Below are positions 32,198 through 61,849 of a DNA stretch of 64,000 bases, piece by piece (position 1 is the stretch's first letter; every line of letters starts with the position of its first letter). The notes under the pieces are model-generated. The model was not told the origin of the DNA. It saw only the letters and a program-made list of their open reading frames with translations, and made no database searches. This DNA comes from Triatoma infestans. Taxonomy: Eukaryota > Arthropoda > Insecta > Hemiptera > Reduviidae. Location of the stretch: assembly GCA_011037195.1 (NCBI GenBank), contig JAAEAF010002351.1:1-64000 (forward strand). The letters are read 5' to 3'. The translations under genes and the position numbers were made by a program.

Positions 32198-32199
32198 AC

Positions 32200-39995: not shown

Positions 39996-40329
39996 TGAGC
40001 TACGACGTAGCTCAAATAAAATCGACGTCAAAAAAACAGATTAATAATTCTCGTTATTATTTTCAAGATCAAAGTTACTATGATGCAATAGATGAGGATT
40101 ATGTTTATAAAAGTTATTTTGTTCCTATTTGGCTCCAATAAAATCAGAAAAACCGCCATTAAAGTTTGATAATAGATCAACTGTCTTGCCTATAATAGGT
40201 TTAGGTTTTTTTCAGGGACATTGAAGATCTCCCTTCCTGTACGACCAACATTCCAGTCACTTATAGGCAAAAGAAATTTAGATTAATTCCTGTCAAGGGT
40301 AGTGACGTAAGGACTAGGATAGAGGGGTG

Positions 40330-40681
40330 AGTAGATGAAATTGACCGATTCTAATTCACTTTGCTGCACAACATGGCGGCCGTCCCCCTTCGCCCACCCC
40401 CCAGTCACTTACCCCCCCATCCCCCCAACCTATTCCCAACTTTTCTCTCCCACCCCTTCCACTCCTCCTTCCTGTAGACAAAGAAATGTTAAAAATTATT
40501 TTTTTTTTGCTGAGGCAGCAAAAGCATCTCACAACCTTCGCCATACAAGTCCATCACTTTCACCACTCAGCTATAGTGGTAACTTGGGAATAGTAGTTTT
40601 CTTTAGATCCTTATACCTCACCCACATACTTCTCCCTCATGTCTCTCACATCCTTTCTCTCTCTCTCTCATACATCTCTCT

Positions 40682-40723
<42 letters not shown>

Positions 40724-41215
40724 CATATATATATATACACAGAGACTTAAAGGGGGGCTCTGCCCCACGTACCCCAGGCCAGGGTTCATTAACCTTTGCA
40801 TCTGTATTTTTCCATTCGTACAAAAGTTTATTAACCTCTATGTGTGCACAATTTTTGCAATATACTTTCTGAGTAAATATATATATATATTTTTTTGTTT
40901 TCCACTAACACTTGAAGAAAGGCATACCCTATGCCCTTCTTATTTAACATAAATCTATTTATCGATCAAGTATATATTGATAACACATATTGATTCCAGT
41001 GTATTGATTATTATCGATTTTGTATGAGGCAGTCACTTCTGTAAGTTTTTTGGGTAAAACATTTTTAAAAGTTAGAAAGCGTATTTAAGATAAATCTATT
41101 TATCGATCAATTATATATTGATCGCTTCCAGTATATATTGATTATTATTGATTTTTATGAGGGAGTCACTTCCGAAAGTTTTCTGGTAAAACATTATTAA
41201 AACTAAAAAAAATCT
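40330..41215 (+). repeat. E1 left terminal inverted repeat, outer part
   Basis: It begins near GATGAAATTGACCG and has ACATGGCGGCC (YY1-like) at about 40370-40381, a C-rich stretch, an A/T hairpin-like TTTTTTTTGCTGAGGCAGCAAAA segment, CT and TA microsatellites (40655-40740), GGGGCTCTGCCCCACGTACC, then two tandem units of about 100 bases beginning ATAAATCTATTTATCGATCA (40950 and 41088). Confidence 0.75.
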
Positions 41216-42329
41216 GGTGTGAAACACTCACACAACTTTCTCTTACTCCTGTTCTCAAAATTAAAATTGACAAATGTTATAGTTTGAAAACTGAAAAAGC
41301 TGTTCAGCATAAGCGCACTTCCGGCTTACAATTTTCTTAAAACTTGGAATTTTGGCCATCTGTTTATTTCTAATTAATTTTGTTTGGATGATAGAATTGT
41401 ATAATCAACTTAGGAATACCACTTTAGGGGAAGCTGCAACCCCACCCCTCCCCTAAAACTGCCCTACATGAATTTTTCCAGAGAAATGTCTTAAATAAAA
41501 GATGTAGATCGTTGCATTTTTATTTTGTATACGAAGTTTCAAGAAAATCGTCGGAGCCATTTTTGAGAAAATCGCGAAAAAATGAAAGAATCATTTAGTA
41601 AAGTGTCAAAACAAACGCACTTCCGGTTATCTGATTTTTTACAAACTCGGAATTTCAACAACATATTTAATTCTAATTAACATTATTTAGATGACAGAAT
41701 TGTCTAATAAACTGAAATAGCACTTTAGATGGAAACCTAACCCCTCCCCTACCCCAGAGGTGCCCTTAAATGAATTTTCCTGGAGAAATGTTACAAATAA
41801 AAGTTATAGCTCTTTGTATGTTTAGTTGATATAAGATGTTTAAAGAAAATCGTCGGAGCCATTTTTGAGAAAATCGCAAAAAAGTGGAAAAATCATTTAG
41901 TAAAGTATAATGTAAACGCACTTCCGGTTATCCAATTTTTTTCAAACTCGGAATTTCATTAACATATTTAATTCTAATTAACACTATTGAGAAGGCAAAA
42001 TTGTCTACTAAACTGAAATAGCACTTTAGATGAAAACCTAACCCCACCCCTCCCCCAGAAGTGCCCTAAAATGAATTTTCCCGGAGAAATGTTTCAAATA
42101 AAGGTTGTAGCTGTTAGTATATGTAGTTGATATGCGAAGTTTGAAGAAAATCGTTGGAGCCATTTTTGAGAAAATCGCAAAAACGTAAAAAACCGACTAG
42201 TAAAGTGGTACTTCCGGTTGAGGAATTTTGACAGATGACCCACTGTCGGATCCCATGGTGATAAGTAAACGAATTATCAAGTTTGAAGTTTCTATGATTT
42301 GAAGTTTTTGACCTATGCTGTTCACACAT

Positions 42330-42372
<43 letters not shown>

Positions 42373-42504
42373 CAGACCATTTGCTAAAAACCACTTTTTT
42401 GGACTCAGGGGACCTCAAAACGGATATTTCCGGTGAAAACTCAATATCGAAAATTTGACACGATTACAATACTTCCTCTTACTAGGAGTAAGAGAAAGTA
42501 AAAA
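41216..42504 (+). mobile_element. Helentron-like nonautonomous element (Hel1)
   Basis: It starts with TCTGGTGTGAAACACTCAC and ACTTTCTCTTACTCCT; the latter 16 bases recur inverted at the 3' end (AGGAGTAAGAGAAAGT), a subterminal inverted repeat. A perfect hairpin CTCTTACT/AGTAAGAG (42476-42494) sits at the 3' end. Inside are about three units of 290-300 bases (near 41325, 41625 and 41930), each with CGCACTTCCGGTTA and AAATCGTCGGAGCC words, and a CA microsatellite (42330-42370). This architecture matches Helentron/DINE-1-type elements. No Rep/helicase is encoded. It splits the E1 left arm. Confidence 0.7.
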
Positions 42505-42640
42505 AAAAGTGTATAATATCATAGAACAAATTAATTAGAGAAAGGAAAAATCTTAGTATTTAACCTGGAGAACTAGTACTTTTTATACGATTAATAATAT
42601 ATATTTTTTCCATTCTCTCTTGCGCATCATATTACGCACC
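42505..42640 (+). repeat. E1 left terminal inverted repeat, inner part
   Basis: This is the reverse complement of 47597-47735, including GAACTAGTACTTTTTATACG and the CATTCTCTCTTG block. The uninterrupted right arm shows the joint AACATTATTAAAA-AAAGTG, locating the Helentron-like insertion in an A-run. Confidence 0.85.
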
Positions 42641-42975
42641 GATTGTATAGGAATTAATGAAAAACAAAAACAATCTTGATTCAAAATAACTTATTATTTA
42701 TACACTTAATTTTACAAGGTATGATTGATAATATAAAGCATGTTTCGATAGCTTATTTTGTAATAGACATTTTGAAAAATACATTCGTATAACATACATC
42801 TTTAGTTCTTCACCACATTCGTACCATATAAACGATTATTTCTCCCACTAATCTATAATTAAACAATTTATTTATATATTTTAGTTATACAATATTATTA
42901 ATGAAAATGTAAAGCATGTTTTTCGTTAGTTTTTTTTGTAATGGACATTAGTTCATCACCACACACCATTTAAAA
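42641..42975. repeat. E1 core, diverged tandem duplication
   Basis: TAAAGCATGTTT, TTTTGTAAT-GACATT and TTC-TCACCACA occur in the same order at 42734-42812 and 42911-42968, indicating an old duplication of about 175 bases downstream of the minus-strand genes. Confidence 0.5.
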
Positions 42976-43480
42976 ATTTATTATTATTGTTTTTCCTAAT
43001 CCTTAATCTATTTGACTGATACCATAATGCAAGTTCAATTCTCTGAGCTTTTGCACATTTTAAATTTTTATTATTATAAAATAGACATTTGAACATATTC
43101 TTAAAGTTAACAATTTTAGGGCACCCAAAGTCTTCTAAATTAAGAATACAACTGTTGGAAAGATATTGTTTTATAAATTGTAATTTCTCTAATCCTTTAA
43201 TTAGTACCTCATCATAATGTTGACTGTAGTATATATGCTAAATGACAGTATGGAGTCAGTCCATCTTTCCATGCTAGTCCATGAAAATATTTGGTTAGCC
43301 ATCGGTTTGCAGGGAGAGATTGTCAACTTGAAACCCATGCAGGTGGTGCAAAAATCCAATGCGATGTAGATCCTGTTTCCACATCTACAATTGCCAATTC
43401 TTTCACAACGTATTTCCTCCAAGTTGGATCTTGAAGAGCTTGGAAATCCACTACTGCTGCTAATTTCTTCATATTACGTT
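42970..43480 (-). pseudogene. E1 gene 1: unrecognised protein, frameshifted
   Basis: A minus-strand exon starts at 43480 after the acceptor TTTTTTCCAG, with ATG at 43472. The first frame reads LAAVVDFQALQDPTWRKYVV then KELAIVDVETGS and stops near 43325; later frames hold GLEKLQFIKQYLS and NLEDFGCPKIVNF, then KCAKAQRIELALWY, ending near 42970. The VDFQ---KELAIV start and the LEDFGCP block recall a multicopy, uncharacterised arthropod protein family with a possible nuclease-like fold; this is from memory, not a search. At least two frameshifts are present. Confidence 0.4.
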
Positions 43481-43590
43481 CTGGAAAAAATAATTAATTG
43501 AAACACAACAAATATTTAAAGAAAAACTCTTCTTTTTTTTATATTATTAGGTATTAAAGAAAAATAAATAAATAAATCATTACACACACA

Positions 43591-43957
43591 TTATACAAAC
43601 TCTAAATCGAATTTTTGTGCGTTAAATCCCTTATAGATTAAGAACATTTTATTTTCCGTTGTGTTATATTCATCATTGTATCTGTTAATCAACTCCTCAG
43701 TCAAAATATTACTGTAGCGTTTTGGGAGAAAAACTTTAGTAGGATAATTATCATTAATATTAAAAAATTCAGCTGATGGTTGAATCAAGTGTGCTATTGT
43801 TGTCTGACCATATCGAGTGTTCATTTTTTCGAATTTATGTACTTCATGTGGAGCACCAATCATTAAGTCACACACTTTATTAATTGAACCACTATGCTTA
43901 TTGCAGGCGTTTAGATAAACCTTTAGTAGATCCATTATAAAAAATAAAAAACCGTAC
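43591..43957 (-). CDS. E1 gene 2: small unrecognised protein
   Basis: The exon starts at 43957 after the acceptor TTATTTTTAG. ATG at 43935 begins 114 codons: MDLLKVYLNACNKHSGSINK, HKFEKMNTRYGQTTIAHL, VFLPKRYSNILTEELINRY and a C-terminal FLIYKGFNAQKFDLEFV. I prefer this Met to one further upstream (44007), which would cross the intron. Alternating hydrophobic strands are compatible with a small beta-barrel (OB-like) nucleic-acid-binding protein, a guess only. Intact frame. Confidence 0.55.
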
Positions 43958-44034
43958 CTAAAAATAACAATTAAAAAAAAAAATAATAATAATAATCTAT
44001 TATACAATTACAAGTATTTAAAAGTAACACTTAC

Positions 44035-44305
44035 CTTAGTTATGGATAATGATGGTGAATGATCAATGTACAGTAGATCTGAAAAAATAATAATAACAAT
44101 AATGAGAATAATCAAAGATAGTACTGGAAAATAACTATTTTCTTTTTATATATACTATCACATATATAGAATACAAAATAAAAATAATAAAAAAATTAAT
44201 TATAAATGAAATTATAAGTAAAGTTAATAGTAAATAACATAAGATCCAAAATACTCACCGAAGAAGAAGAAAAAGCAGAATGCAGATTAATTGAAGAATG
44301 ATGGA
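44035..44305 (-). promoter_or_regulatory. E1 leftward spliced leader (two noncoding exons)
   Basis: Leader exon 1 ends at 44259 with donor CG|GTGAGT. Exon 2 spans 44078-44035, preceded by TTTTTTCAG and followed by AAG|GTAAGT. Downstream acceptors at 43957 (gene 2) and 43480 (gene 1) could be used alternatively, so one promoter may serve both genes. All signals match animal splice consensus. Confidence 0.55.
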
Positions 44306-44325
44306 TGACTAGTTAAGTAACGGCA

Positions 44326-44348
44326 TTTTTATATTCATTGTGACGTAT
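44326..44348 (-). promoter_or_regulatory. E1 leftward promoter: TATA box and ACGTCA
   Basis: Minus strand: TATAAAAA (44333-44326) lies about 70 bases before the first donor, preceded by ATACGTCA (44348-44341), a half cAMP-response element. Transcription would start near 44300. Confidence 0.55.
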
Positions 44349-44359
44349 ATATTAACCCC

Positions 44360-44778
44360 CCACTTTTGTCATGCATTCTCTCTCTTAAGTAAAAGAGAAG
44401 GTATACCCATCAGCTGCAAAATATTAATGCTGGCTTTTATCTTAAAAATAAATAAAATAATTTTATTGTTGTTGTTAACCATTGGATAAATAGTTGCTCT
44501 AAGAAAATTTAGAAATAAATTTTCAACTATGATTTTAGGTGATGATTATGAATTTATCAAAACAAAACAAAAAAAATGTTTGGCTTAAACTAACTGTTAT
44601 TAAAGATGTAACAATTTGCAAAGGAATATGTTGAAAGAGATCCTAATCTTCATTTTAAACAATGCTTTTGGTCAAAAACCTAACCAGATTTGCGACCCCC
44701 GATAGATGCATATAGCTGTCTCGCAATTCGCATTAAAAGGAGCTGTACTTGATTTATTTGGAAATAGTGGGGGTCTTG
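44360..44778 (+). other. E1 core spacer with coding remnant
   Basis: This is mostly noncoding. The frame 44609-44680 reads QFAKEYVERDPNLHFKQCFW followed by SKT and a stop, a short relic of an unknown protein. The divergent genes lie on either side. Confidence 0.3.
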
Positions 44779-44797
44779 TCATTGTAACTGTAGTGAA

Positions 44798-45423
44798 TTG
44801 GTTTGTCTTTTTGCATTCAGTTGTAAACGCGGCACCACCATGACAAATGAACTTGGATTGCAGCTAACTACAGCTTTTTCTTTCAGCAGCAACTCCACTA
44901 AAAGGCTAGTAACTGGTCTTTCCCAAGAAGGTGTACCACTTGCAGCACTGAAGGTAGCGAAAAAGAAAGTCATCTATTTAAGTGAAGAAGATTGGTCAAC
45001 GCTTCAGTCTAGCAGCAGACAAATATGAGATAATTTCTTCAAAGAAAAGAGGAAAAACGAAGTAATCACTGATATAATTCAATTATCTCTTTTGAGAAAT
45101 CTACACACAAAGTGATTGCATTCAAAGGGAAACCAACATGGTTAGAATCAATTCTTAATTTTCAACCTCCAAAGATTACTCTTATGAGAAATGAATACTT
45201 TAAACTGATAAGTTTGTATGAAGATGTACTGAAGCAGTTTAGTTATTTAAGAAAACTTTACAATCCCGTTGTATTGACATATTCTGAAGAAAACAATAAA
45301 TCTATTTTTGATATCTATTTTGTTTTGTTTTGTTTTTCATTTTTTAACCTATCATCTTATTGGGGTAAAAGAAACAAAAAAATAAATCCACTAAAGTTAA
45401 TAAATTTTTCAATTAACACTTAA
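44798..45423 (+). pseudogene. E1 gene 3: unrecognised protein, frameshifted
   Basis: The likely start is the Met at 44840 (TNELGLQLTTAFSFSSNSTK, GLSQEGVPLAAL, VIYLSEEDW), which stops at 45026. A second frame at 45112-45310 (LMRNEYFKLISLYEDVLKQF) looks like its C-terminal half. The two halves have the length and composition of small DNA-binding or structural proteins, but no family is certain. Low-complexity sequence ends the second frame. Confidence 0.4.
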
Positions 45424-45429
45424 CTGATT

Positions 45430-46189
45430 GTTTTTATAGATAAGAAACAAGGCTGCAGAGTTGCTTTCATCTACCTAAATTTCAAGTAACCGTAATAAGG
45501 TGATAGAATGACTTAATTTTTGTTTATTTGTTTTTTGACGAGCTGGAGATATACCATTACTTAACGAGTAATCATAAATTTGCTTGTACCAAGGAGAGTA
45601 CAAGACAACTGTAACAATGATTAAAAATGATATTTATTAACTCTATTAAGGGTCCAGATGCGTGGCTAAAACAAACTATTACATAATCTTTTGGGAAAAA
45701 TAGCATGGAAGCACAAGATTGGTAGCAACAGTATACAATAGCTGGAGGTTCGAATTCTAATTTTATAGATAATTTTTGGACAATTTAGACCATTCTACAC
45801 GAATTTACTTTCAATAATTATACATATACGTTTACTTATTTATTAAAACATTTTTTTTTTTATTCTGTTCAATATAAAGTCATCGCAGAATTAATGTCAG
45901 TAATTTTCCATGGAATCAAGTAACATAATGGGAATGTTGCAAGCATTAAATATGTTTTTTCTGAGAGATCATGTATGTTCTTTCTTTCTCACAAAGGTTT
46001 GTTGTTTTTATAGAAATATCATGTTATGCTGATTGTTAATTTAACATACCACAGTAGTCTGTCATATCTGGTTTATATATACATATAACATAATAGAAAA
46101 AAATATTTCTATTTATTTAAATGTTAAAAAAATTATTGTGTTAATTGCAGTAGATGTATTGCCTTGGGGATTTGGTTAGGTAAAAATAT
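45430..46189. other. E1 core, noncoding, with possible SINE head at 45690-45790
   Basis: GGAGGTTCGAATTCTA (45745-45760) is a perfect B-box match, and TAGCATGGAAGC 45 bases upstream is a weak A box. The rest is AT-rich with no frames of interest. Confidence 0.35.
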
Positions 46190-46480
46190 AAATACTTAGG
46201 GCAAAATCACTACACACAGCAACAAATATGACCGAAGTAAAAATTAATTTGTGAAATAACCAAGAAAACACAGTTAAGATAATAAATTACGCACTTTCTT
46301 CTTTTACTTTCAACTGAATACGAGTTAATCATATAAGACAATCGCTATAAAAGAAGTACATAACATATTAGGTACTAAAACATATTTACGTTATCATATG
46401 GCAATTATTGTGGAATCTTAAAAAAAAACAAAAAAAAAACAACAGATTTTTCGCTAGTAATTTCCAATATAGTTCCATAG
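46190..46480 (+). repeat. E1 segment homologous to E2 left arm
   Basis: GGGCAAAATCACTACACACAGC, AATAACCAAGAAAA-CACAG, CGTTATCATATGGCA and TCGCTAGTAATTTCC occur in the same order at 52690-52850 of E2 (and inverted at 56640-56810). This ties the interiors of the two elements together. Confidence 0.65.
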
Positions 46481-46504
46481 ATAAATAGATGACTTACCTG
46501 CCTC

Positions 46505-46746
46505 TAACTCCTAGTAAGAGGAAGTATTTTTTTTCTATATTACAACTGGTACTTAAAGAGTGGCTCTGCCCACTGGCTAGAGTACCCCAGGCTTACGCAT
46601 TAGCATAAGAGTGGGAGGAAATTTGTATTCTACTAAAGTGACGTCATGCCATTGAATTGGGGGGTGGGTGGGTGGTACGGTTAAGAAATTTTATGTGATT
46701 GAAGGACTACATTAATCACTTGGTGTATTCCCTTCAGACTAACAAG
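46505..46746 (+). promoter_or_regulatory. E1 rightward promoter region and leader exon
   Basis: GTGGCTCTGCCCACTGG...AGTACCCCAGGC (46560-46592) resembles the GGGGCTCTGCCCCACGTACC block of the E1 and E2 termini. A perfect cAMP-response element TGACGTCA lies at 46639-46646. The leader exon ends at 46746 (AACAAG|GTAAAT). A short inverted match to the Helentron 3' hairpin lies at 46502-46520. Confidence 0.5.
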
Positions 46747-46838
46747 GTAAATAATTAAATATATTTCTCATTCCATCCATTTTATTTTCTGTTTTTGTAA
46801 TGGCTATTAGTTACTTTAAAATGTTAATTCTATTTCAG

Positions 46839-47251
46839 GAACTTTATGGAAGTCAGTTGTATATGAACATACAAACTATTGCAATTTAGTGTGTAATTAA
46901 TTTTCATAAAAAATGGAAGAATGGGCTCGCATTATATCACACCCTCTCTATCAACAATTTCTAGATTTCTCCAGATGCACCTTAGAAAAACCGGGAGCAA
47001 TTCAGTATATGAATTTATACAATGATATAAAAGAATTGGAACAATTATCTAAAAAATACGTTATAAAAAGCAAGTATAAAAATTTCCATTATGTAAATTG
47101 TGTTTGGTCAAACCCAAATTATAAAGAAGGACCTGATACGTGTAGATGTTGCAATATTTCTGGTTTGTATTATTCTATTATTAACCAATTAGGTGAAATT
47201 TACAATTGTAATTTTATTGAAATCATGAATAAACAGACAATAAATAATTGA
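46839..47251 (+). CDS. E1 gene 4: small Cys-containing protein
   Basis: The exon begins at 46839 after the acceptor CTATTTCAG (intron 46747-46838). ATG at 46913 opens 112 codons: MEEWARIISHPLYQQFLDFS, SKYKNFHYVNCVWSNPNY, DTCRCCNISGLYYSIINQLG and a short tail. The C-x8-C and CRCC cluster could bind a metal or form disulphides. The frame is intact with a good context (AAAAAATGG). No family recognised. A strong hairpin follows 110 bases downstream. Confidence 0.6.
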
Positions 47252-47360
47252 ATATGTTATCAAAAAGAAAAAAAGAAGCTGTTATTATAAAGATTGCAGA
47301 TTATATTTGTAGATCAAATTTATAATTTGTTTAAGACATTTAGAAACAAAATTAATTGTG

Positions 47361-47423
47361 TTTTTTCATCACACATATAAGTTCTATGTATTTATAATAG
47401 AACTTATTTGTGTGATGAAAAAA
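47361..47423. other. Long hairpin after E1 gene 4
   Basis: Arms 47361-47387 and 47397-47423 are 27 bases each with one mismatch and a 9-base loop. The arms end in T and A runs. It could mark a 3' end for converging transcripts or be an inserted palindrome. Confidence 0.7.
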
Positions 47424-47596
47424 AAAATAAATAAATTTTTCTTATTTTTGAAAGAATAAAAACAAAGTGTCCATTAATTATGATAACCCTTCACATAGTT
47501 GTAATTTGCTCTAAAAATTTTCATATGCCTATGTATAACAAATTCTTAATTCGTATGCTGTACAAAAGAGAATTTAGTTGAAATTTTGCTCGAATT

Positions 47597-47923
47597 AAGT
47601 AATATGATGCACAAGAGAGAATGGAAAAAATATATATTATTAATCGTATAAAAAGTACTAGTTCTCCAGGTTAAATACTAAGATTTTTCCTTTCTCTAAT
47701 TAATTTGTTCTATAATATTCACTTTTTTTTTTAAATTTTAATAATGTTTTACCAGAAAACTTACAGAAGTGACTCCCTCATAAAAATCAATATATACTGG
47801 AAGCGATCAATATATAATTGATCGATAAATAGATTTATCTTAAATACGCTTTCTAACTTTTAAAAATGTTTTACCCAAAAAACTTACAGAAGTGACTGCC
47901 TCATACAAAATCGATAATAATCG
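47597..47923 (-). repeat. E1 right terminal inverted repeat, truncated
   Basis: It pairs with 42640-42505 and then 41215-41008. Beyond 47923 the match stops, so the outer end with the YY1-like and microsatellite blocks is missing. Confidence 0.85.
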
Positions 47924-48039
47924 ATTTCCATCCAATAACATGGAATAACCGCTTCTCGTTTAACTCTAAAATAAAAAATCGCAAGGGACGTAGAAGTTCT
48001 CATTTCTTAAGTTATAGCAGAATTAAATCGAGCACTGTT

Positions 48040-48280
48040 CACAGTCATTCGGATTGTTGAAATGAACATTTCTTTGATGTTTTAAAACAATTAGAAACAA
48101 ATGGAGAAGGTTCTAAAAGTTACATTTTAATAAAATTAGTCCCTTTTTTAGAAAAATTAGGTTTATTACGTATAGATGGAAAATTAAAATTCGGTGATTT
48201 TAATAAGAAAGAAATGATGTGGTAAGAAACATCGTTTGTTGTTGCCTAAAGTGAGTCATTGAATAACCTTCTAATTAGAC
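48040..48280 (+). pseudogene. BEL/Pao pol fragment before integrase
   Basis: LVPFLEKLGLLRIDGKLKFG followed by DFNKKEMM and LNNLLIRH corresponds to the block before the integrase of BEL/Pao elements (NPFLD--GLLRVGGRL, HPILLPK, LI--YH). A stop and shift lie in it. Nothing else of the element is nearby. Confidence 0.5.
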
Positions 48281-48780
48281 ACTAACATATCTGCCATTTG
48301 CATGCAGGTCCGCATGGCTCTGTTTGGCTCTGTTTTCGCTTTATAAATACTGCGAGGTACATCTTTATTTTCTTTTGGGCTGAGAAAATCCTGAAAAAAA
48401 ATATACATTTTTGTGGATATTGTGGCAATCTGGCAAAATAGGTATATTTGAAATCATGTGTGTTTTATAACATGGTTAGTTTAAATAATAAAATAATTAA
48501 CAAAAGACGGTGAGTAAGAAATACGATTTTGGTTGGTCCATCTGTGTGTTTGATGTGAGAGTATTTTTGTTTTGTGTATGTACTCTGAGAAGTTGAAAGC
48601 TCAGGAGTGGTGAATATCAGGAAAGGGAAAAGAAATAAGAAAACACTTAGAGGTTTTAATAGTACAAATCTTGTGTATTATCTATGTATTCTTATCAAAG
48701 GCATCAAAATTCTTTCATTCCTTTAAAGTCATCATTTCTCAATGTTTTCATCGACCTTGTTTGTTTCTTCCATAGGAAAG
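48281..48780. other. No recognisable feature
   Basis: There are no frames or repeats on either strand that I recognise between the BEL fragment and the RTE sequence. Confidence 0.4.
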
Positions 48781-49245
48781 TTTGTGTTCTGGGTAAGACA
48801 TTAAACTGCACCCTGAGGAGATGGACCTCAAAGCCGTGGTGAAGGCGACCCATCTATCTAGGAGAAGGGCACTCCGAAATAAAACCAAGGGCAGGCCACG
48901 CTCTGTAAGGTGTGGTGAAACCGACTGGGCTAGGAGACGGAAACTCCGAATTCAAATGACCTAGGTTGGGGGTTGGCTGTACGGTTAACAACCCTACGCT
49001 GTAAAAAATCTCTTGTTATGAAACCAGAAACTATGAATAGCCGGACGATTTTCAGGGCCTAGGCGAATCAAAGGATCTTCAAACAGTTAACTTTAGCCAC
49101 ATGGAACGTAAGAGGGTTCTCCCAAGCGGGAGCAAGTAGAAATTTGAAAGAGGTTCTGCTACGTTACGGTGTGTATATTATACGCGTTCAGAAAATAAAA
49201 TGGAATTAAACAGAAGTCATGGATTTGAGAAATTATATATAATAA
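48781..49245 (+). pseudogene. RTE-type LINE, 5' end
   Basis: It contains the RTE 5' text (GGAGACGGAAACTCCGAATTC and GGTTGGCTGTACGGTTAACAACCC-like segments) and the endonuclease start: LATWNVRGFSQAGASRNLKE then RYGVYIIRVQKIKW, where E of QE-RW is replaced by K. It breaks off at about 49245. Confidence 0.65.
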
Positions 49246-49249
49246 ATTC

Positions 49250-49480
49250 TTTTGTGGCTGAAAGCTTAGTGAAAATGCTCCAGTATAGGCCAAGGTATAG
49301 GTGGAGAGGAGACGCCGCGGTAGGCCAAGGAAGTTATGGATGGACGGCGTGAAGAAAGCTCTGTGGCTAGAGGTCTACGAGAAGGAGAATGGCAAGATAG
49401 AGAGTACTGGAGGGAAACTCTTTTGGGCAACGGGGTGCACTAAACGGTGTAAATACCCGTAAAAAAAATATATACATATA
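49250..49480 (+). pseudogene. RTE-type LINE, 3' end
   Basis: GRPRKLWMDGVKKALWLEVY is the C-terminal GRPR-RW-D-V motif of RTE ORF2, ending near 49465 and followed by an A-run. The order 5' end, 3' end, middle (49500 on) shows separate insertions or rearrangement. Confidence 0.6.
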
Positions 49481-49499
49481 TATAATAAATTGCGGTTAT

Positions 49500-50805
49500 A
49501 GAATTTTTATAACACGTTTGAAGGGTATGTATTTTAATACGTCCTTAATCAGTGTAAATGCACCTATAGAAGATAGAGAAGAAGAAGATAAGGATTATGT
49601 CTATGATGTTTTCTCACAAGAATATGACTTACTACCAAGGCATGATGTAAAATTGTCATGGCGATTTAAACGCTAAGATTGGTGAGGAGGCAGCTTTCAG
49701 TCCAACAACTGGGGCACACAGCAAACACGAACTGTCTGATGAAAATCGTATACGAATAGTGGATTTTGCAGTAGAAAAAGGAATGGTTGTAACTAGCACA
49801 TGTTTTCCCCACAAACTTATTCATAAAGAAACTTGGGTATCTCCGGACGGGAAAACAAGAATCCAAATTGACCATGTCCTTACAAGACATCTTCAGAAAT
49901 ATCTGATGTGATAAGTTACCGTGGTGGAGATGCAGATTCGGACTACTTTTTGGTATGGTTTCCCTATAAACAAAAACTAGCAAGAAAAGCCCGCGGGAAA
50001 GGAGAAAAGCAATCAGATATCGAAGTGACTTATTAATCGAAGCAGTCCAAGTACGAAGAAAAATTTAAAGAAGGAGTCCATTAATAAAAATGAAAATGAA
50101 CAAGTTGAGGATACCTGGAAGAAAATTAAGGTAACACTGAGGAACACGGCTGATGAATTACTTGGAATAAGACAGAGAGAGATTAGAAACGAATGGTTTG
50201 ATGATGAATATGAAAAGAGGCTTAGAGAAAGAAATGAAACAAGGATGAAAATGTTGGCTAGGAATACACGGCATAATAAAGAAGATTGTAGGGCTAAGAG
50301 GAAGGCGGCAAAAACTATTTGTAGACAGAAAAAGAGGGCTTTGGAAAGGAGAAAGTTGGAGGCATTACAAACGGAATATGAAGTAAAGCAAACCTCAGTT
50401 TTATAAAGGAATAAGAGAATTTAAGATGGGATTTCAGACAAGAACATGCTTCTGCAGAGACAAAGAAGGTATTTTGATTGGTGATAGTGCAAAAGTTAAA
50501 GATATCTGGCGCCAGTATGTCGAGAGCCGGTTAAAGCCGGGATGCTGGTAAAAGTGGAGAAGACTGCTGAGTCAAGTGCCGAATTGGCAGAAATACCTTT
50601 AGACAATGAAGGTGATGATGTTGAACCCCCAGATTTTGAAGATTTCAAAGAAGAAAAATGACAAAAGTCCCGGCTGCGATGGCATAGATGCAGAAATGCT
50701 GAAATATGGTGGTGAGGATCTAATCAAAAAGCTATATGACTTAATATTACAAGCATGGATCTCAGAAAAGATGCCGAGCGAATGGTTGCTATTATATGTC
50801 AAGAG
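49500..50805 (+). pseudogene. RTE-type LINE, endonuclease and RT start
   Basis: It continues the endonuclease: LISVNAPIEDREEEDKDYVY, the GDFNAKIGEE position (frameshifted at 49665), AFSPTTGGHSKHELSDENRI, STCFPHKLIHKETWVSPDG and IQIDHVLT, then ISYRGGDADSDYFLVW (H of SDH changed to Y). A basic spacer and the RT start KKKNDKSPGCDGIDAEMLKY follow (50645-50710). The E2 end interrupts the RT at about 50805. Confidence 0.75.
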
Positions 50806-51140
50806 TAGATTGGATTGACCGGTTCTAAAACAGTTTTCTGTACAACATGGCGGCCGTCCCCCTCGCCCGCCCCCTCATAGTCACTTACCCCCTCCTCCAC
50901 CACTTAACCCCCCCAACCTATTCTTAACTTTTCTCCACCCCTCCCCCTTTCCTGAAAACAAAGAAATGTTAAAAATATTTTTTTTTTTTGCTGAAGTCAG
51001 CAAAAGCGATGTCACAAACCTTCGCCGTACAAGTCCATCACTTTCACCACTCAGCTTAGTGGTAACTTGGCAATAGTTTTTTCTTAGATCCTTATACCTC
51101 ACCCACATACTTCTCCCTCATCTCTCTCATATCCTTTCTA

Positions 51141-51176
<36 letters not shown>

Positions 51177-53095
51177 ATATACATATATATATATACACAG
51201 AGACTTAAAGGGGGGCTCTGCCCCACGTACCCCAGGCTACGGTTCATTAACCTTTGCATCTGTATTTTCCCATTCGTACAAAAGTTTCTTAACCCCTATG
51301 CGTGCACAATGTTTGCAAATATATTTCCTGATTATATTTATTTATTTATTTTTTTTACACTAAGTCTTAAAGAGAGAACCCTCCCTCTTTGTTTATGATA
51401 AAACTATTTTTATCGATCAAGTATATTACCAACACATATATCTAATCCAATATAGTGATTTCTGAGACAGATACTTATGTATGTTTTTTTTTGGTAAACA
51501 ATAAACTAAAACTAATCTATGCCTCCTTCTTATACATCTTACTTATCTATTTTTATCTATCAAGTATATTGACATCCTAACCAGTATATTGATTTATGAG
51601 TCACTTACCTGTCTAAGGTTTATGGTAATCAATTGAAAGTTAAATCTCCACTTTCCTTGTTTAAGATAAATCTATTTTTTATCGATCAATTAATTTATAG
51701 ATTCCAATATATCGTTTTCTTTTTGGCACAGCTTAAAGTCGTTGGATCTGTTATCTAACGCAATACATGACGAAGTAGTTACTAATATCTTTTGTCGTAC
51801 TAATTGTTTATGCAATTAAAGAAAGGAAAAAAGCTAGTGTTTAACCAGAAATTTAGTAACTGTTGTGTCTCAATTTACGTACTAAATTCCGCATATTTTT
51901 AATCACTTTTCTAATCTAAGAAGCACTCAATTTACACACATAATTCCGTCAATTCTCGCAAAGTAGAAATGTAAATTTTCGGTTAAAAAAGTCGAAAGTG
52001 CCTATCTTACAGATTGACATGTAACAAATAAAAGTAAGAATAGCGGTCTATGCGCATTTATTAAAACTGGTAAATTAACTGGAATTTGTATGTTATATAT
52101 TTTTAAACACTTCTTATTAGAGCAGAAGTAATTTCTCCACAGATAATTTGTGGAGTTTCTCAGTAATATCTTACATCTAGTGGAAAGCTGATCCTGCACA
52201 AATAATGTAATTTTCAAAAAAAAATCGTCTGTCGAACTAATTGTTTGTACAATTAAACAAATTCGTTAGAGAAAGGAAAAATAAAAGAAAACTTAGTAGA
52301 ACTAGTAGTCTTTTAATCTCAATTTACGTACACAATTCCCCATATTTTTAAACACTTTTCCAATCTAAGAAGCACTCAATTTACGTACTTGATTCCCCCA
52401 AAATAGTGATCAGTTTCCAATTTAACTGGTAAATGAATTATTCTATATTTTTAAACATTTTTGTAATCTAATAAGCTTTCAATTTACATATATAATTCCC
52501 ATAGAGAATTTATTAAATTAATGGGATCTATACATCACCTAAATAGAAGTAACTTCCTTAGTGAATAACAGATTGAATTTTACTCCTAGAGTTGTGGATA
52601 TGCTAATGAGTTATGACGAATGATTAGACAATAGAGAATGTATTGTGTTAAATGTCTTTGGTCATGTTAATATGTAATATTTTGGGTAAAATCACTGCAC
52701 AAAGCAAAGTTTGATTGGACTGCAATAAAATTTGTCGAATAACCAAGAAAATCACAGATATACAAAAGAATATAAATATATATTGCACTAAAACATTCTT
52801 AAGTTATCGTATGGCATTCTTGTGGATTGCAATAACAGTTTTGCTAGTAATTTCGAAGTTGAGTCTGCTTTCCTCAACCTTTCTAAACACGTAACAACTT
52901 GTTCTACTGCCTTACATTGTTAAACAGGCATAGTGGCTGAACAGCATATGATATTACACACTAAAAACATGTTACTTTTTAATCAAAGAATATTGGAAGT
53001 AGTTAAACCATTGTGCGCAAAGTATAGGGAAATAAGTTTCTAATCTGGGGAAATGTTTGCATTATATCCAAATTCGAAATCTTCTGTTTGGAATT
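50806..53095 (+). repeat. E2 left arm
   Basis: From outside in: ACATGGCGGCCGTC (about 50847), C-rich, CT and TA microsatellites (51140-51200), GGGGCTCTGCCCCACGTACC, repeated TATCGATCAA motifs, then repeat units with AATTTACGTAC-AATTCC words, and the conserved inner block ending TTCGAAATCTTCTGTTTG. Confidence 0.8.
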
Positions 53096-53508
53096 GTAGA
53101 CATTTCTACCAGCACTAACTCTATGCAATTACTGGAAGATTGTTTATCACTATTAGATAGTAGGAAATGTTATTTTAAACCAGTAATTACATAGGGTTTG
53201 TTATTTCCGACTCATATGTAAACAGGGATTGTACATTTTTCGGTTGCGTCTAAATCTTTATTTTGCCTATCTTACCAAAATCAGACCTTTGCCTAATTTT
53301 GTCTATGTCTAAACCTAAACCTATTACACAAAACATACCGTGGACAGCCGATTTGGAGGACCGATGGAGATGGAAAAAACTTAATTGTTAAGAAGGAAAT
53401 TAGTGGCTCTTTTAACAGTTATCTCCGAGGGAAATGCGGTCATTTGTTTGTGCGAGACATGGTGTTAAAGCCAAACTACCTTTTTTTTACTAGAAAGCAA
53501 GAACAAGA

Positions 53509-55410
53509 TGGCTAAAGATGTAGAAACAGTAACTGGCGAAGAACGTTTAGGAGATATTTAAAAAAAATATAACAATCCAGTATAGATACGATTCAAAGTC
53601 GAGGTGTCAGATGTTAAATTGGAGAATCAGCTGGAAAAATTGCAAGAATTATTAAACCGACTAAAAGAGGAAGATTACTACCTAATAGATTTGGATATAA
53701 CACAGGACTTTGCTGGAATATTTAATAGAACAGAAATGGGTAGTTATTTAACCAATACTTTTAACTTTTGCCACCAAGGAGAGTATAAGAACGATTGTAA
53801 TGTAATTGTGGATAACGATAAAACAGTTGGTAAGGACTGTTTAACTTGGTTAACTTCTAACGCAATAACGCAAGAGTTAAAATATGCGCTAAGTTTATTT
53901 GTCAAATAACAAGTCCGGGCGTTAATAAGAAAATCGGCAATCATATTGTACATTTTGTAAATTGTCCGGATACAAGATTAAAGAAACATTTACGTCTACT
54001 TCTGCCAAAGAACATGGTATTACAAGACTAGAAGCTACAATTTATAACTACTGTACTGGAAATTATTACGAAGCAACCGACGATATGTACAAACCTCTGG
54101 AAAACGTTTACCCCTATTGGAAAGTAGCAAATGTTATTTCCGTCAAGCTCCAATGTATTCTGTTTCTTTTGCAAAGATGTAGACAAGGCTAACAGACACT
54201 CTACAAAACAGTTGTTGTCTTGTATTTAATAATTTGTATATGTAGTAATAGTATGTATATTGGGCGAATAAGAACACAAGAAAGTTGACTGGTATACAGT
54301 TAAACCTACCGGAAAATACCAAGAACAGAGAAAAAATGATAAATTATGTTGTTTCGGCATTTAGTTTTAACTCTCTACCAATTAATTATATTGAGACCAT
54401 AGAAGATTGTGTAAACAAAGATATTGTACAGATTGTGCAAAAATGTTACATTAAAGTTGGGGAAACGTAATTCACAAAAACTGGAACACTGTTTTCTACC
54501 ATACCAGGAAGTATAGATATCGAAAAGACAGGATTGGTCTCTACAAATAATATAATTCCTCATGTCTTACGGAAGAGAGCTAACATAACCAACACGCTAT
54601 TGCCATATACAATAAAAGAAATAGAACCCCATCCCTAATGTATGCACTATCTGCAAAGAAACGACACTTAGAATTAGAAGAGGTGAATTTAAAAAGAAGG
54701 AAGATAGACTATATAAGAAAACTACAGCTCTTAAAGAGGAATACAAGCAACTGGTGGAGAAAGAAAACGAGTTGACCGAATTTAAAAATAGGTTAATAAA
54801 CCTATTTAAAACACATTGGAAGAATTTGGACACAACTGGTGTGTACAATGTTTTCTGCATTTACCGTAAACAACAAAGGAACTTTTACATATGTAAGAGT
54901 CCTTGCAGAAAAAGAAGGGTGCAAGAACGTATACTTTCTAAAAGGGTACCACAAAAATACATTTATAAGTGCCTATTCCAATAAAGAAAAACTTAAAGAA
55001 GATGGTTACATTATAATACCAAAAAATGGGTTGGATATAATTTCCTCACCCACCGAGTAACCATTTTTAACATTTACTACGAATGGTGTAACAACTTACA
55101 AAGGAAACTCATATGCCAAAATAGAGAAGATGGAATTTTGCACAGACATATGGAAAAAAATGCAAGATACCGCTTTTACACACAAGAGGAGATGGGGAAG
55201 TTTAACGATATTACGATCCAAGAAATAAAAGGTCGTGTTAAAGTTTCTGAGTGCAACCGGCTAGAAGAATTACCAGAACTAGTAATTCTGGTGGGTCCTA
55301 CACTAGTTACTTACAGAAATAAACTCCGATATATACTACAGATGGAAAATATAGAGACATTGTACATATCTAATTGCTGGTTAGTAAGAGAATTCAAGAC
55401 TTAGCTTTAG
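53509..55410 (+). pseudogene. E2 core gene: unrecognised protein(s), multiple frameshifts
   Basis: A start is plausible at 53509 (MAKDVETVTGEERLGDI). Frames at 53604-53909 (YLIDLDITQDFAGIFNRTEM), 53900-53990, and 53962-54192 (EHGITRLEATIYNYCTGNYY) appear to be one protein cut by two frameshifts. Frames at 54285-55030 (LPINYIETIEDCV, EYKQLVEKENELTEF coiled coil, SAFTVNNKGTFTYVRVLAEK) and 55140-55404 (LVILVGPTLVTYRNKLRY) look like a second part. The pattern YNK-like---TRLEATIY vaguely recalls replication initiators; this is speculative. AATAAA-type signals occur at 55515. Confidence 0.45.
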
Positions 55411-56040
55411 ATTTTGACTATAAAATAAATTACATTAGATAAGTTAAAACATACTGCCAGTAGACATAAAAAGAAAGATTTGTATTGTGTGTGTAAATTA
55501 TGTATATTATTAACAAAATAAAAATAAAATTATAGTATAAGGGATGGATTAAGTAACCATATTATGTTTGTGTTATTTATAATAGAACCGTACACATCTG
55601 TGTATTATGGGAGAAAAATGATAGAGAAAACGGTGATCAATTTTTACTTTTTTAGTGGTTGTAATTATTTCTTTTCTATTTCTTTCTTTTGTATTGGAAA
55701 AATAGAGAAACATTTATTATTTTTTTTTTCTTTAAATTATTCACTTAACAGCATGTAGTGATCGCGCGCGTGTGTGTGTGTGTGCAATGGCGCGTAAGGA
55801 TGGTTTAGGAATGATCTGACGCTGCAAAAATACTTCTGTGTAATAATTTCCGTCTAATAAAAACAAGTTAAAACATTAAACAGAACTAAGAATCATTTTT
55901 CTTTTTTGGGAATATTTTGATAAATTTCTTCCAAATGACTACAGATATATTTATCTTCCTAATCGGTAGCAATTACAACAATTTGGGGGGCCAGGCACTT
56001 GTATGTTTGCAGTATTTTTTTGTTTTAAACAGCTCTAACT
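55411..56040. other. E2 core 3' flank, noncoding
   Basis: AATAAAATAAAAATAAAAT (55516-55534) could be the polyadenylation region of the core gene. A CG/GT microsatellite lies at 55764-55785. No genes seen. Confidence 0.45.
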
Positions 56041-56377
56041 ATTAGACGTTAGACAACAGCTACAAACAGAAGATTTTGAATTTGGATATAACACAATCAT
56101 TTCCCCAAATTAGAAACTATTTTCCTATACTTTGCAAGCATTGGTTTAACTTGTTCCAATATTCTTCGATTAAAAAGTAACATATTTTTAGTGCATAATA
56201 TCCTATGCCTGTTTAACAATGTAAGACAGTAGAAAAAGTTATTTACATGTTTAGAAAGGTTGAGGAAAGCTGATTCAACTTGCAAAACTGTTACTTAAGA
56301 CTGTTTTAATGCAATATATGTTTATATTCTTTTGTATATCTGTGTTTTTCTTGGTTGTTCTTGGACTAATAGACGTT
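56041..56377 (-). repeat. Extra direct copy of E2 inner arm
   Basis: ATTAGACGTTAGACAAC-GCTACAAACAGAAGATTT starts both at 56041 and 56369, and about 300 bases follow in parallel, so the inner end of the right arm is duplicated. Confidence 0.75.
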
Positions 56378-58671
56378 AGACAACGGCTACAAACAGAAGA
56401 TTTCGAATTTGGATATAATGCAATCATTTCCCCAGATTAGAAACTTATTTCCCTATACTTTGCGAACAATGGTTTAACTTGTTCCAATATTCTTTGATTA
56501 AAAAGTAATATGTTTTTAGTACATGACATCACATACTGTTTAGCCTGTTTAGCCATTATGCCTGTTTAACAATGTAAGCCAGTAGAACAAGTTGTTACGT
56601 GTTTAGAAAGGTTGAGGAAAGCAGACTCAACTTCGAAATTACTAGCAAAACTGTTATTGCAATCCACAAGAATGCCATACGATAACTTAAGAATGTTTTA
56701 GTGCAATATATATTTATATTCTTTTGTATATCTGTGATTTTCTTGGTTATTCGACAAATTTTATTGCAGTCCAATCAAACTTTGCTTTGTGCAGTGATTT
56801 TACCCAAAATATTACATATTAACATGACCAAAGACATTTAACACAATACATTCTCTATTGTCTAATCATTCGTCATGACTCATTAGCATCCACAACTCTA
56901 GGAGTAAAATTCAATCTGTTATTCACTAAGGAAGTTACTTCTATTTAGGTGATGTATAGATCCCATTAATTTAATAAATTCTCTATGGGAATTATATATG
57001 TAAATTGAAAGCTTATTAGATTACAAAAATGTTTAAAAATATAGAATAATTCATTTACCAGTTAAATTGGAAACTGATCACTATTTTGGGGGAATCAAGT
57101 ACGTAAATTGAGTGCTTCTTAGATTGGAAAAGTGTTTAAAAATATGGGGAATTGTGTACGTAAATTGAGATTAAAAGACTACTAGTTCTACTAAGTTTTC
57201 TTTTATTTTTCCTTTCTCTAACGAATTTGTTTAATTGTACAAACAATTAGTTCGACAGACGATTTTTTTTTGAAAATTACATTATTTGTGCAGGATCAGC
57301 TTTCCACTAGATGTAAGATATTACTGAGAAACTCCACAAATTATCTGTGGAGAAATTACTTCTGCTCTAATAAGAAGTGTTTAAAAATATATAACATACA
57401 AATTCCAGTTAATTTACCAGTTTTAATAAATGCGCATAGACCGCTATTCTTACTTTTATTTGTTACATGTCAATCTGTAAGATAGGCACTTTCGACTTTT
57501 TTAACCGAAAATTTACATTTCTACTTTGCGAGAATTGACGGAATTATGTGTGTAAATTGAGTGCTTCTTAGATTAGAAAAGTGATTAAAAATATGCGGAA
57601 TTGTGTACGTTAATTGAGATAAAAGACTACTAGTTCCACTAAGTTATCCTTTATTTTTCCTTTCTCTAACTAATTTGTTTAATTGTACGAACAATTAGTT
57701 CGAGAGAAGTTTTTTTTTGAAAATTACATTATTTGTGCAGCATCAGCGTTCCACTAGATGTAAGACATTACTGCGAGACTCCACAAACTATCTCTAAAGA
57801 AATCACTTCTGCTATAATGAGAAGTGTTTAAAAAATATATAACATATAAGTTTCATTTAAATTATTAGTTTTAATATGTACGCATAGAGCGCTATTCTTA
57901 CTTTTATTTCTTAATGTCAATCTGTAACATAGGTACTTTCTACATTTTTAACCGAAAACTTAGATCTCTACTTTGCAAGAATTGACGGAATTATATGTGT
58001 ACATTGACTATGTTTTAGATTAGAAAAGTGATTAAAAATATGCGGAATTGAGATTCAGTAAATTGAGATACAACAGTTACTAAATCTCTGGTTAAACACT
58101 AGATTTTTTCCTTTCTTTAATTGCATAAACAATTAGTTCGACAAAAGATATTAGTAACTACTTCCTCGTACATTGCGTTAGATAACAGATCCAACGACTT
58201 TAAGCTGTACAAAAAAATAACCGATATATTGGATTCTATAAATATAATTGATCGATAAAAAAAAATTTATCTTAAAAAAGGAAAGTGGAGATTTAAGTTT
58301 TAATTGTTTGCCAAAACCTTACACAGGTAAGTGACTCATATCAATATCTGGATTGGATATATTTGTTGTCAATATACTTATTTATCTTAAATAACAGGTT
58401 AGAAGGAGGCATAGATTAGTTTTAGTTTTTGTTTACCAAAAAAAAACTTAACATAAGTATCTGTCTAAAAAAATAAATAAATATATTATAATTAGGAATT
58501 ATATTGCAAACATTGTGCACACATAGAGGTTAATAAACTTGTACGAATGGCAAAATACAGATGCAAAGGTTAGTGAACCCTGGCCTGGGGTACCTGGGGG
58601 AGAGCCTCCCTTTAATCTCTGTGTACATATATATTAATATTATAATATATATATATATATATTATATGTGT
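56378..58671 (-). repeat. E2 right arm, inner part
   Basis: This is the reverse complement of the left arm. It has two units of about 450 bases (57245-57690 and 57695-58145, each with TTTGAAAATTACATTATTTG) where the left arm has one. It ends in the TA tract where a LINE is inserted. Confidence 0.82.
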
Positions 58672-61165
58672 AACTAAGAATGATTATTTTCTGAATCTGA
58701 CAGAGCGATTTAAAACTATTAAAGATACAAGGGAGTTTTGGAAGGTAGCTAATAAATTAAAAAATAAACAATTTATTTGCGGTCATAATATAGAAAATGA
58801 ATATTGGGTACAATATTTTTCAAATTTGCTAAATCCAGAAGTACACGCACCAAATATTAGCTATGTAAGCCCTTTCATATATGTCGAAAGTTTAGACAAA
58901 CCCTTTGAGCTGAAGGAATTGCAATTTGTAATTAATAAAGCACCGAATGAACAGGCTCCCGGCCTGGACCGGATACCTTTTGAATTTTATCAGAATAGCC
59001 CGGAAAACTTCTTAGAAAAAATATTATATTACTTTAATTACATAAGGAAAGTTGGAGTGGTACCGGACAATTTTGGCAGCTCGATCATATTTCCGCTTCA
59101 TAAAAAGGGAGATATCAATGATGTTAATAATTTCCGCGGAATAGTATTTTCGGATACAATCGTAAAATTGTTTACCGGAATAATCCTAGAAAGGCTGAAA
59201 TTATGGGTTGATAACAATAATAAATTAAATGAATATCAGTCCGGTTTTAGGAAAGGGTTTTAGGAAAGTACAACAGATAATATTTTTAGTCTGCTTAACA
59301 TTGTAAAAATTAAAATGTCGCGAAAGCGAAGCAAAGTATACTGTTTTTTCGTCGACTTCAAAGCAGCCTTTGATTCCCCAGTCAGACACGCGATTTATTA
59401 TAAATTACATACTTTAGGGGTGTCTACAAAATCAATTGAATTAATTGAGAAATACTATGAAAATACCGAAGCTGCAGTTTGGACGAAAACAGGTACCACA
59501 CGGTTTTTTAAAACAAAAAATGGATTAAAACAAGGCTGTTTGCTTTCACCATTGCTGTTCGCCCTGTTTTTGAACGACCTCCATGAGTTTGTGGAAGGCG
59601 GAATATGGATAGGAAATGTAAATGTTAGAGTTTTACTTTATGCGGACGATATTGTCCTGTTGGCCAGCGAACCGCGAACCCTACAGACCATGATCAATAG
59701 ATTAAAGAAATATTGTGAACTCTGGAATTTAGTAGTAAACTTGAAAAAATCTAAAATTATGGTGTTTAGGCGTGGGGGTAGATTAGCGCGAAAAGAGAGG
59801 TGGATGTACTCTGATGAACAGATAGACGTCGTGTCGCACGCATAAGTACCTAGGATTAACTCTCACTCCGCAAATTACATTTGGAAAACACTTCAAGGAA
59901 AAGTCAACTGCCTGCAAAATGAGCATAGGATCTGCCTGGAACAGAATTATAACAAACGATAATATACCGCTTTCCGCAAGGTATCAGTTTTTGACTCGGT
60001 TTGTAGAGCGGTCGTATGCTATTCCGGGCAAGTTTGGGGTTTTCAGGAACATAATGAGGTTGAAAAATTACAAAAATATTTTATTAAAAGATTATTTCTC
60101 TTGCCAAGTCATACACCGAATTATACAGTATATCTGGAAACAGGTAGATTCCTATTATTTCATTATACCTTACATCTTCACCTGAATTATGTCCGCAAAA
60201 TATTATCATTGCCTGCTTCGCAAATTAGGAAAAATTTAGCTCAGTGTATAATAGATAAGAAGATATGGTGGTTTGCTGAAATTTCAGATTTAGCCAGTAA
60301 ACATAATTTTAACGCGGTGGAATTGTATACCGGCGAGGATAAAAGTTATGTTAATAGATTTATAGAATCACTAAAAACAAATTTTAAAAGCACACTACTC
60401 AACAATAAAGCTAATTCAAAATTCTATCTAATCTATAAAGAAGTAGAAGTGAAATGGAGAGAAGGATATATGAAGGACTCCAATAAGCGATTTTTCATAT
60501 CAGTAATAATGAAAGTAAGAGGAGAACTATTGGGATTAAATCGCTCTGTAAGCAGGTCAGAAGAACAGTTAAAATGTTCAATGTGCAAAATGTCTGCAGA
60601 AGAAAACACCTTTCACTTCATAGCCCAGTGCCCAATTTTAACAGGTTTTAGAAAAAAATGGTTTAAAACTGAAAAACTGTCCTTGATTGAATTTATTGAA
60701 TACCTAAATGGTAAAAACTGGGAAGTTCTCTTTAAATATACAAAAGCTGCCCTAAATTTTAGAAAAGATTTGGTAAAAGAGTTCAATTATTAACTATTTA
60801 GTTCTAAGAACAAAATTATTAATTTGTAATCCTATTTATAAACCTCTTACAACTTACTACACATTCAATATTAGAAAAGGGGACTTGGTTTTAGTTTGGT
60901 TTTCTTTGTTTTCCTTTGTTGTTTTCTTATATATATAAAGGGTATTTTTAATTTCACCTAAAGCACCTTGCAAATAAAATTCCTAAATAAAATCGATTGA
61001 AATTGTAGCTAATTTATATTTTGATGTATTATTATGCCAACTTGGCAAGACGAACTAAGGTTCATTGCCTATTTTGTGTTATGTAAGAATATTTCTTGGT
61101 TGTAGATTTTAATTGTAAATAATAAACGCATTTATTATTAATATTATTATTATTATTATATTATA
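58672..61165 (+). mobile_element. LINE-B insertion, 5'-truncated
   Basis: About 2.5 kb with RT, C-terminal knuckle, 3' UTR and (TTA)n tail (61130-61165), inserted in the TA microsatellite of the E2 right arm. ATTATATG-TGTA occurs on both sides and may be the target duplication. Confidence 0.8.
58690..60793 (+). pseudogene. LINE-B ORF2: RT and C-terminus, frameshifted
   Basis: NKAPNEQAPGLDRIPFEFYQ and IIFPLHKKGDINDVNNFRGI open the RT; a nonsense codon at 59261-59263 interrupts the finger region (RKGF). Then YCFFVDFKAAFDSPVRH (first Asp), NGLKQGCLLSPLLFALFLND and the active site LLYADDIVLLA (59635-59667). A shift at 59845 moves to later frames (SIGSAWNRIITNDN, FLTRFVERSYA), and the last frame has the knuckle KCSMCKMSAEENTFHFIAQC and stop at 60791. 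Catalytic residues intact; inactive through shifts. Confidence 0.82.
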
Positions 61166-61820
61166 TTATATGGTGTATATATCTATAGATGAGATAGAGA
61201 TAAAAAAAAGGGTGAGAGACATGAGGGAGAAGTATTTTGTGTGGTTATAAGGATCTAAAGAAAACTACTATTCCCAAGTGTACCACTATATCTGAGGTGG
61301 TGAAGTGATGTACTATGATGACGGAAGGGGTTGAATCGCTTTTTCCTGACTCACAAAAAAAAAAAAGATTTTTATATAACTCCTTTGCTATAGGGAAAGG
61401 AGACATGTGGAGGGAGCGGTGTGAGAAGGGTATGCACTGTTGTGCAGAAAATTGGAGGGGTTAAGTGGTGTGTGAGGGCGTAATGGAGTTTTGGTTGTGG
61501 ATGTTACGTTAAGGGTGGGGGTGCAAAGAAAATGGAGGTCATCGATTTGGATGATAAATTAAGGAAGGGGGTAAGTGGTTTAGGGAGTTGTCGAAATCGA
61601 TGCTTGGAAGTGGGGGTGACCTGTTTGTCCAGTACAATGATTGGTCTGTGGGTGAATGGGGTGGGGGAAAGTGGGCGTGGCCTAAGTGTTTGTCCAGTTC
61701 TATGATTGGTCAGCGGGTGAATGGGGTGGGGGAAAGTGGGCGTGGCCTAAGTGCTCGTCCAGTTCGATGACGGCCGCCATGTTGTGCAGAAAACTGTTTT
61801 AGAACCCGTCAATCCTACCT
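61166..61820 (-). repeat. E2 right arm, outer part with promoter-like tandem units
   Basis: It pairs with the outer left arm but contains extra units: a 66-68 base unit at 61618-61685 and 61686-61752, each with GATTGG (inverted CCAAT), AGTGGGCGTGG (GC-box-like) and a third partial copy. GACGGCCGCCATGTTGTGC (61767-61785) is the YY1-like end motif. Confidence 0.75.
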
Positions 61821-61849
61821 ACTGGGATTCCTAGTAAGCTGGTCATACT

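Follow-up and report, generated by a model that had tools for sequence, protein, structure and literature searches.

Polinton-related inverted-repeat elements in Triatoma infestans: two probable non-autonomous relics and their palindromic relatives

Introduction

Foldback transposons (FB, Galileo and Tetris) have a P- or Mutator-type transposase and a target duplication longer than 6 bp. Polintons are regarded as a root group of the DNA viruses of eukaryotes, with replication primed by a protein. Two elements with long inverted arms, E1 (40330-47925) and E2 (50804-61823), lie in a stretch of 64,000 nucleotides from the insect Triatoma infestans. This stretch, called the window here, is the first 64 kb of contig C2292 (JAAEAF010002351.1) in a 941-Mb assembly (GCA_011037195.1), and other copies of the elements were sought in the same genome. 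E1 and E2 are very probably non-autonomous, now inactive derivatives of a Polinton/Maverick family whose movement in this genome was recent.

Two described systems are closest. In one account (PMC8097293), the Polinton/Maverick polymerase is called protein-primed, and vertebrate Mavericks are given 6-bp target duplications and ends of (AGT)2 or (AG)3. Rep_trans (PF02486; pT181 RepC, RepDE, RepSTK1) is a family of rolling-circle nickases that, according to a 2026 article (PMC13107129), is apparently restricted to bacteria. How do E1 and E2 compare? They work like Polintons and derive from them, but a complete Polinton is defined by its integrase and polymerase, and neither element carries these.

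An integrase-bearing element with shared ends

The closest tie to Polintons is a 14.65-kb element, C276 (C276:107482-122134), whose genes lie between terminal repeats of the kind seen in E1's relatives and whose ends start AGTAGA. Its left terminal repeat is 97-98% identical over ~1.27 kb to that of a relative of E1 on contig C2800. The repeat is followed by gene D (the last of four E1 genes, A to D), an unbroken E2-type gene of 801 aa, a 285-aa open reading frame (ORF), an rve integrase (1.5e-12 in Pfam), a 1,226-aa ORF and the opposite repeat. Gene D is truncated here, in a region with 98% DNA identity to L131, a palindromic relative of E1. The 1,226-aa ORF contains YADFEA, NLTGYDSH, YLKTDVLLLADVF, DCNNLYGYAM, NNSVYGK and YIDTDSF in that order. 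We take these to be family-B polymerase and exonuclease motifs, and the ORF probably encodes a polymerase. Because a single element joins the ends of E1's relatives to an rve integrase, polymerase motifs, gene D and an E2-type gene, E1 and E2 are best read as non-autonomous, decayed relatives of Polintons.

A second link runs through L143, which belongs to a group with gene D at 58-60%. This element has an rve integrase (1.4e-15), a Pox_A32-type ATPase (5.5e-7) and a parvovirus-type phospholipase A2 (Phospholip_A2_4, 3.2e-13), and L145, L147, L148 and L149 align co-linearly with it or among themselves over 5-6 kb. Genes A and D of E1 are shared with integrase-bearing copies. The L143 relative of gene A shows 41% identity over 108 aa to a frame of L151 that is related to gene A of E1. 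This L143 gene (4818-5795) also has a weak C-terminal match to BIR (inhibitor of apoptosis) at 9.5e-5, just above the cut-off. Six L143-type copies have terminal repeats that start AGTAGA, as do the left ends of E1 and E2 and the ends of the C2800 and C276 copies. When the C2800 end was compared with five integrase-type Polinton ends, its score was reached by 0, 0, 0, 3 and 0 of 2000 shuffles; a row for the C276 end was set aside, as its sequence had been joined with an offset of one base.

The insertion sites point the same way. Perfect 6-bp target duplications flank three of the five copies with both flanks read: TACAGA at C2800, TACATG at C8413 and CATGAT at C276. The C2800 copy sits within an ORF resembling a long interspersed nuclear element, which it interrupts.

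The first-pass annotation of this DNA had found no familiar kind of element in E1 and E2. This is refuted in part: an rve integrase of Polinton type and polymerase motifs occur in relatives that have the same ends, and genes A and D of E1 have relatives in integrase-bearing Polintons. The annotation was right to see two related inverted-repeat elements with virus-like genes, and, as it expected, complete copies elsewhere define a family.

Several observations weigh against a Polinton origin. No rve integrase was found in E1 or E2 (ORF list, with ten frames scanned in Pfam), and no polymerase was seen in them. Searches of Pfam, PDB and PHROGs did not return a polymerase for the 1,226-aa ORF of C276, and no capsid, ATPase or protease was recognised there among ORFs of at least 90 aa in L158 and at least 80 aa in L159; an ATPase is found in L143, and C276 has instead an E2-type gene. 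The ends in the window resemble L143-type ends less clearly, their scores being reached by 0 to 348 of 2000 shuffles, with E2 right against L145 the weakest pair. The remaining two of the five copies, C8106 and C169, have no target duplication, and none is visible around E2. The missing integrase has a second bearing: its absence from E1 and E2 and its presence in C276 argue for non-autonomous derivatives and not for complete Polintons.

How might such derivatives have moved? An integrase and polymerase of the C276 type may recognise the shared ends, copy DNA of the E1 and E2 type and insert it in trans, while the E2-type protein would start or resolve replication of the element. E1 kept its four genes, A to D, together with a trace of the E2-type gene; in E2 the E2-type gene was the only one recognised.

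The E2-type gene and the Rep_trans family

The E2 core gene (53363-55183, + strand) is a Rep_trans-like replication gene in broken frames. Its pieces match all 22 members of A1, a set of E2-type proteins, with the best member at 46-81% per piece, and a cysteine occupies the position of the presumed catalytic tyrosine. The intact 746-aa frame of L155 matched 29 proteins in the protein database; where E2-type proteins there have names, these are 'hypothetical' or 'uncharacterized'. Two relatives are unusual in their setting. In Aphis glycines, part of an E2-type protein (P0029) is joined to a piggyBac-type transposase (PF13843), maybe as a fusion or as an artefact of gene prediction. A 785-aa relative (P0008) is filed under a metagenome-assembled genome of the insect symbiont Baumannia, on a 60-kb contig, and host contamination is likely.

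The E2-type family matched no Pfam family, and PF02486 in particular matched 0 of the 22 A1 members. An hhalign comparison with RepC gave an E value of 0.16. The PDB sequence search returned no row or weak rows only for four short pieces and none for the A1 profile, and PHROGs gave two weak matches to one E2 piece (E 0.006 and 0.023) and none for the intact proteins.

The likeness to Rep_trans lies in the model and in single residues. The predicted N-terminal fold resembles that of the rolling-circle nickases, and the ordered residues D, D, G, YxK and RxE, all invariant, resemble theirs. When compared with the active-site motifs of the family (N' D, RxD, T/SxY/ExG, YxKxxE and W/LxRxE), the E2-type proteins have D, D, T/S..G (as TxG), YxK and RxE, all almost invariant. 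By contrast, R is replaced by L in motif I and E by C in motif III, and motif II is shorter. The E2-type protein further differs in its occurrence in insect genomes, its length of ~800 aa, its OB/HIN-like C-terminal part and its want of a significant sequence match to the family.

Could the E2-type protein have a TBP-like DNA-binding fold only, and no nickase? We would put this alternative a little below an even chance. Against it, Y214, K216, K212, R261 and E263 do not vary in 21 of 21 rows, and D25 and D151 show no variation in 19 of 19. These residues follow one another as they do in Rep_trans, and in the model Y214 falls on a beta-strand. Moreover, PMC13107129 states that Rep_trans proteins themselves have the TBP fold and that only structure allowed a relative from archaea to be recognised. 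These points favour a Rep_trans-type tyrosine nickase, with the nickase activity putative.

Palindromic relatives of E1

Gene D of E1 (46910-47248, + strand) encodes 113 aa with a CxxC pattern and is open in the window. A search of the genome gave 764 candidates, of which 150 were scored. By hand count of the scored rows, 138 have no stop inside the match, and 59 rows on 38 contigs (window included) are full-length at 88% identity or more. On 21 of the 38 contigs, two full-length copies face each other ~1-2 kb apart. Strong selection on gene D was considered and dropped: the ratio of nonsynonymous to synonymous change (dN/dS) is 0.41-0.86 in 13 of 15 pairs and 1.3 and 1.4 in two low-count pairs, and the truncated gene D of L158 makes the rows that include it unreliable.

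Twelve loci of the group at 88% or more were fetched. In ten of them (L131-L136, L138-L140 and L142) the fetched stretch contains inverted arms, 3.5 kb or longer, that are 93-99.5% identical; those of L138 fall into two blocks. L137 and L141, the remaining two, lie on contigs that end inside the palindrome. The C2800 copy, at 258350-272434 (14.1 kb), has arms of ~6.7 kb around a centre of 0.6 kb. Each ~6.7-kb palindrome arm carries the four genes of E1, with A and B directed outward and C and D inward, and the E1 sequence at 42.9-47.5 kb of the window matches the arms of palindromic copies at 84-91%.

Did each palindrome form anew? Identity between the arms of one copy is 97.6-99.9% in nine copies, and arms of different copies have a mean identity of 99.0% and a maximum of 99.96% over 144 pairs; L132, the tenth long-armed palindrome, was left out of this comparison because the contig ends in its right arm. 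Re-formation by snap-back in each round was rejected, as the two arms of one copy resemble each other no more closely than they resemble the arms of other copies. One founding duplication followed by a burst fits these alignments: a lineage related to E1 probably became a ~14-kb palindrome once and may then have been amplified as a unit.

Reading E1 itself as a truncated palindrome was abandoned in favour of a linear repeat-A-B-C-D-repeat element. In E1 the right arm adjoins the side with gene D in much the way that the left repeat does in C276, which makes the linear form the better reading.

It is very unlikely that the palindromic relatives are independent small viruses, with genes A to D self-sufficient and the Polintons as borrowers. 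Genes B, C and D are all open in L131, which would suit such viruses, as would the many gene D rows free of stops. Against them stand the ends of C276, which are the same, and the C2800 copy, in which no polymerase or integrase was seen (ORF lists of L131 1-5300 and L151; Pfam).

There is about as much to be said for as against an insect Polinton lineage that has its own Rep_trans-type tyrosine nickase beside a polymerase, maybe replicates partly by nick-primed strand displacement, and supports palindromic, gene-bearing satellites. Such a lineage, in which a plasmid-like nickase is present and no capsid genes are recognised, would represent a new mix of replication modes. It would also contain a eukaryotic relative of Rep_trans, contrary to the 2026 statement cited above (PMC13107129). 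The palindromic relatives of E1, as gene-bearing satellites with very similar arms, would allow a test of Polinton enzymes acting in trans. A Polinton bearing a putative nickase and palindromic, gene-bearing satellites would both surprise a specialist.

A second kind of inverted duplication exists in the E1/E2 family. On C540 (L157 1733-4663 and 6160-9081), two Rep-like ORFs of ~800 aa, 98.8% identical to each other, are arranged as an inverted pair next to sequence of the E1 type.

E1 and E2 in the window

The copies of E1 and E2 in the window are relics. Their left ends are 81% identical over 703 bp (40329-41009 against 50803-51460), and the right end of E2 matches the reverse complement of these left ends in the pieces 58467-58673, 61151-61374 and 61769-61823. 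All three surviving ends start AGTAG, reading AGTAGA at E1 left and E2 left and AGTAGG at E2 right. The interior homology of the two elements has its best core at 46334-46414 and 52744-52826, where the score is 60; none of 1000 mononucleotide shuffles and none of 261 other stretches in the window reached it. The first-pass annotation was right on both counts, the common outer ends and the interior homology.

The left terminal inverted repeat of E1 (40330-41212, +; 5'-AGTAGATGAAATTGACC) shows homology with the left end of E2 and with both ends of the copy on C2800. An inserted repeat (41213-42499) separates it from the inner part of the left arm (42500-42635, +). The right inverted repeat (47599-47925, -), defined by arm alignment and by comparison with the C2800 copy, has lost its outer part, and no outer right end was found past 47925. 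The arms are shorter than those of E2, with 41003-41212 matching 47726-47925 at 93% and 42500-42635 matching 47599-47731 at 96%.

End alignments place the E2 left terminal inverted repeat at 50804-51460 (+; 5'-AGTAGATTGGATTGACC). Arm alignments place the left arm at 51459-53090 (+) and the right arm at 56056-58472 (-). These long arms are built partly from units of ~449 bp, seen in the left arm; the inner arms (51868-53090 against 56390-57619) are 97.6% identical over 1,232 columns, and a second block (51459-52396 against 57540-58472) is 87% identical over 952 columns. The right terminal repeat has an inner piece (58467-58673, -) and an outer piece with a 65-bp tandem unit (61151-61823, -), both placed by end alignments. 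Between them lies a nested reverse-transcriptase element foreign to E2 (58674-61150, +), recognised by its motifs by eye and by its insertion inside a TA tract of the repeat.

Because of this nested element, the claim that no reverse transcriptase is present is not literally true of the interval. The likeness to foldback transposons holds for the arm structure and fails for the target duplications, which are 6 bp long. That E1 and E2 are a separate foldback-type family which merely acquired Polinton genes is most improbable, for although the giant palindromes and the long inverted arms, with repeat units inside them, would agree with it, the 6-bp duplications, the Polinton-type rve integrase on an element with the same terminal repeats and the absence of a P- or Mutator-type transposase from the Pfam matches of the scanned ORFs all speak against it.

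The genes of E1 are partly decayed. Gene A (42956-43473, -), presumably nuclease-like, has a broken frame. Gene B (43594-43935, -) is open, encodes 114 aa and shares 106 of 114 residues with L131. The compact genes had also been called spliced; splicing is suggested for gene B alone, whose leader by eye contains two GT-AG introns. Gene C (44768-45423, +) is in two broken pieces here, and its L131 counterpart (1509-2156) is open. The trace of an E2-type (Rep-like) gene at 46228-46335 (+) comes from tblastn with A1, in which 21 of 22 members matched the E1 core at E <= 1, the best rows at this position reaching 3e-5; an earlier trace near 45590, read by eye, was dropped.

In the protein database, gene B and one E2 piece had no match among candidates limited to proteins of similar length. 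Neither gene B nor two E2 pieces gave a confirmed match in viral_contigs, and the 14-mer ACATGGCGGCCGTC proved too short as a query there, with at least 120 stretches matched.

Neighbouring repeats

The repeat inserted in the left arm of E1 (41213-42499) is related to 62733-63748. Both inserts have ~301-bp tandem units and 16-bp inverted ends (ACTTTCTCTTACTCCT / AGGAGTAAGAGAAAGT), and related stretches occur on other contigs (L121, L122, L144, L145 and L153). By eye, E2 is flanked by two different retroelements. On its left, 48800-50803 is a retroelement fragment with endonuclease- and reverse-transcriptase-like frames that E2 interrupts; on its right, 61824-62500 is a fragment of a Penelope-type reverse transcriptase. 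Long retrotransposon frames were also read by eye elsewhere in the window, at 22763-25295, 10769-13482 and 32169-34890.
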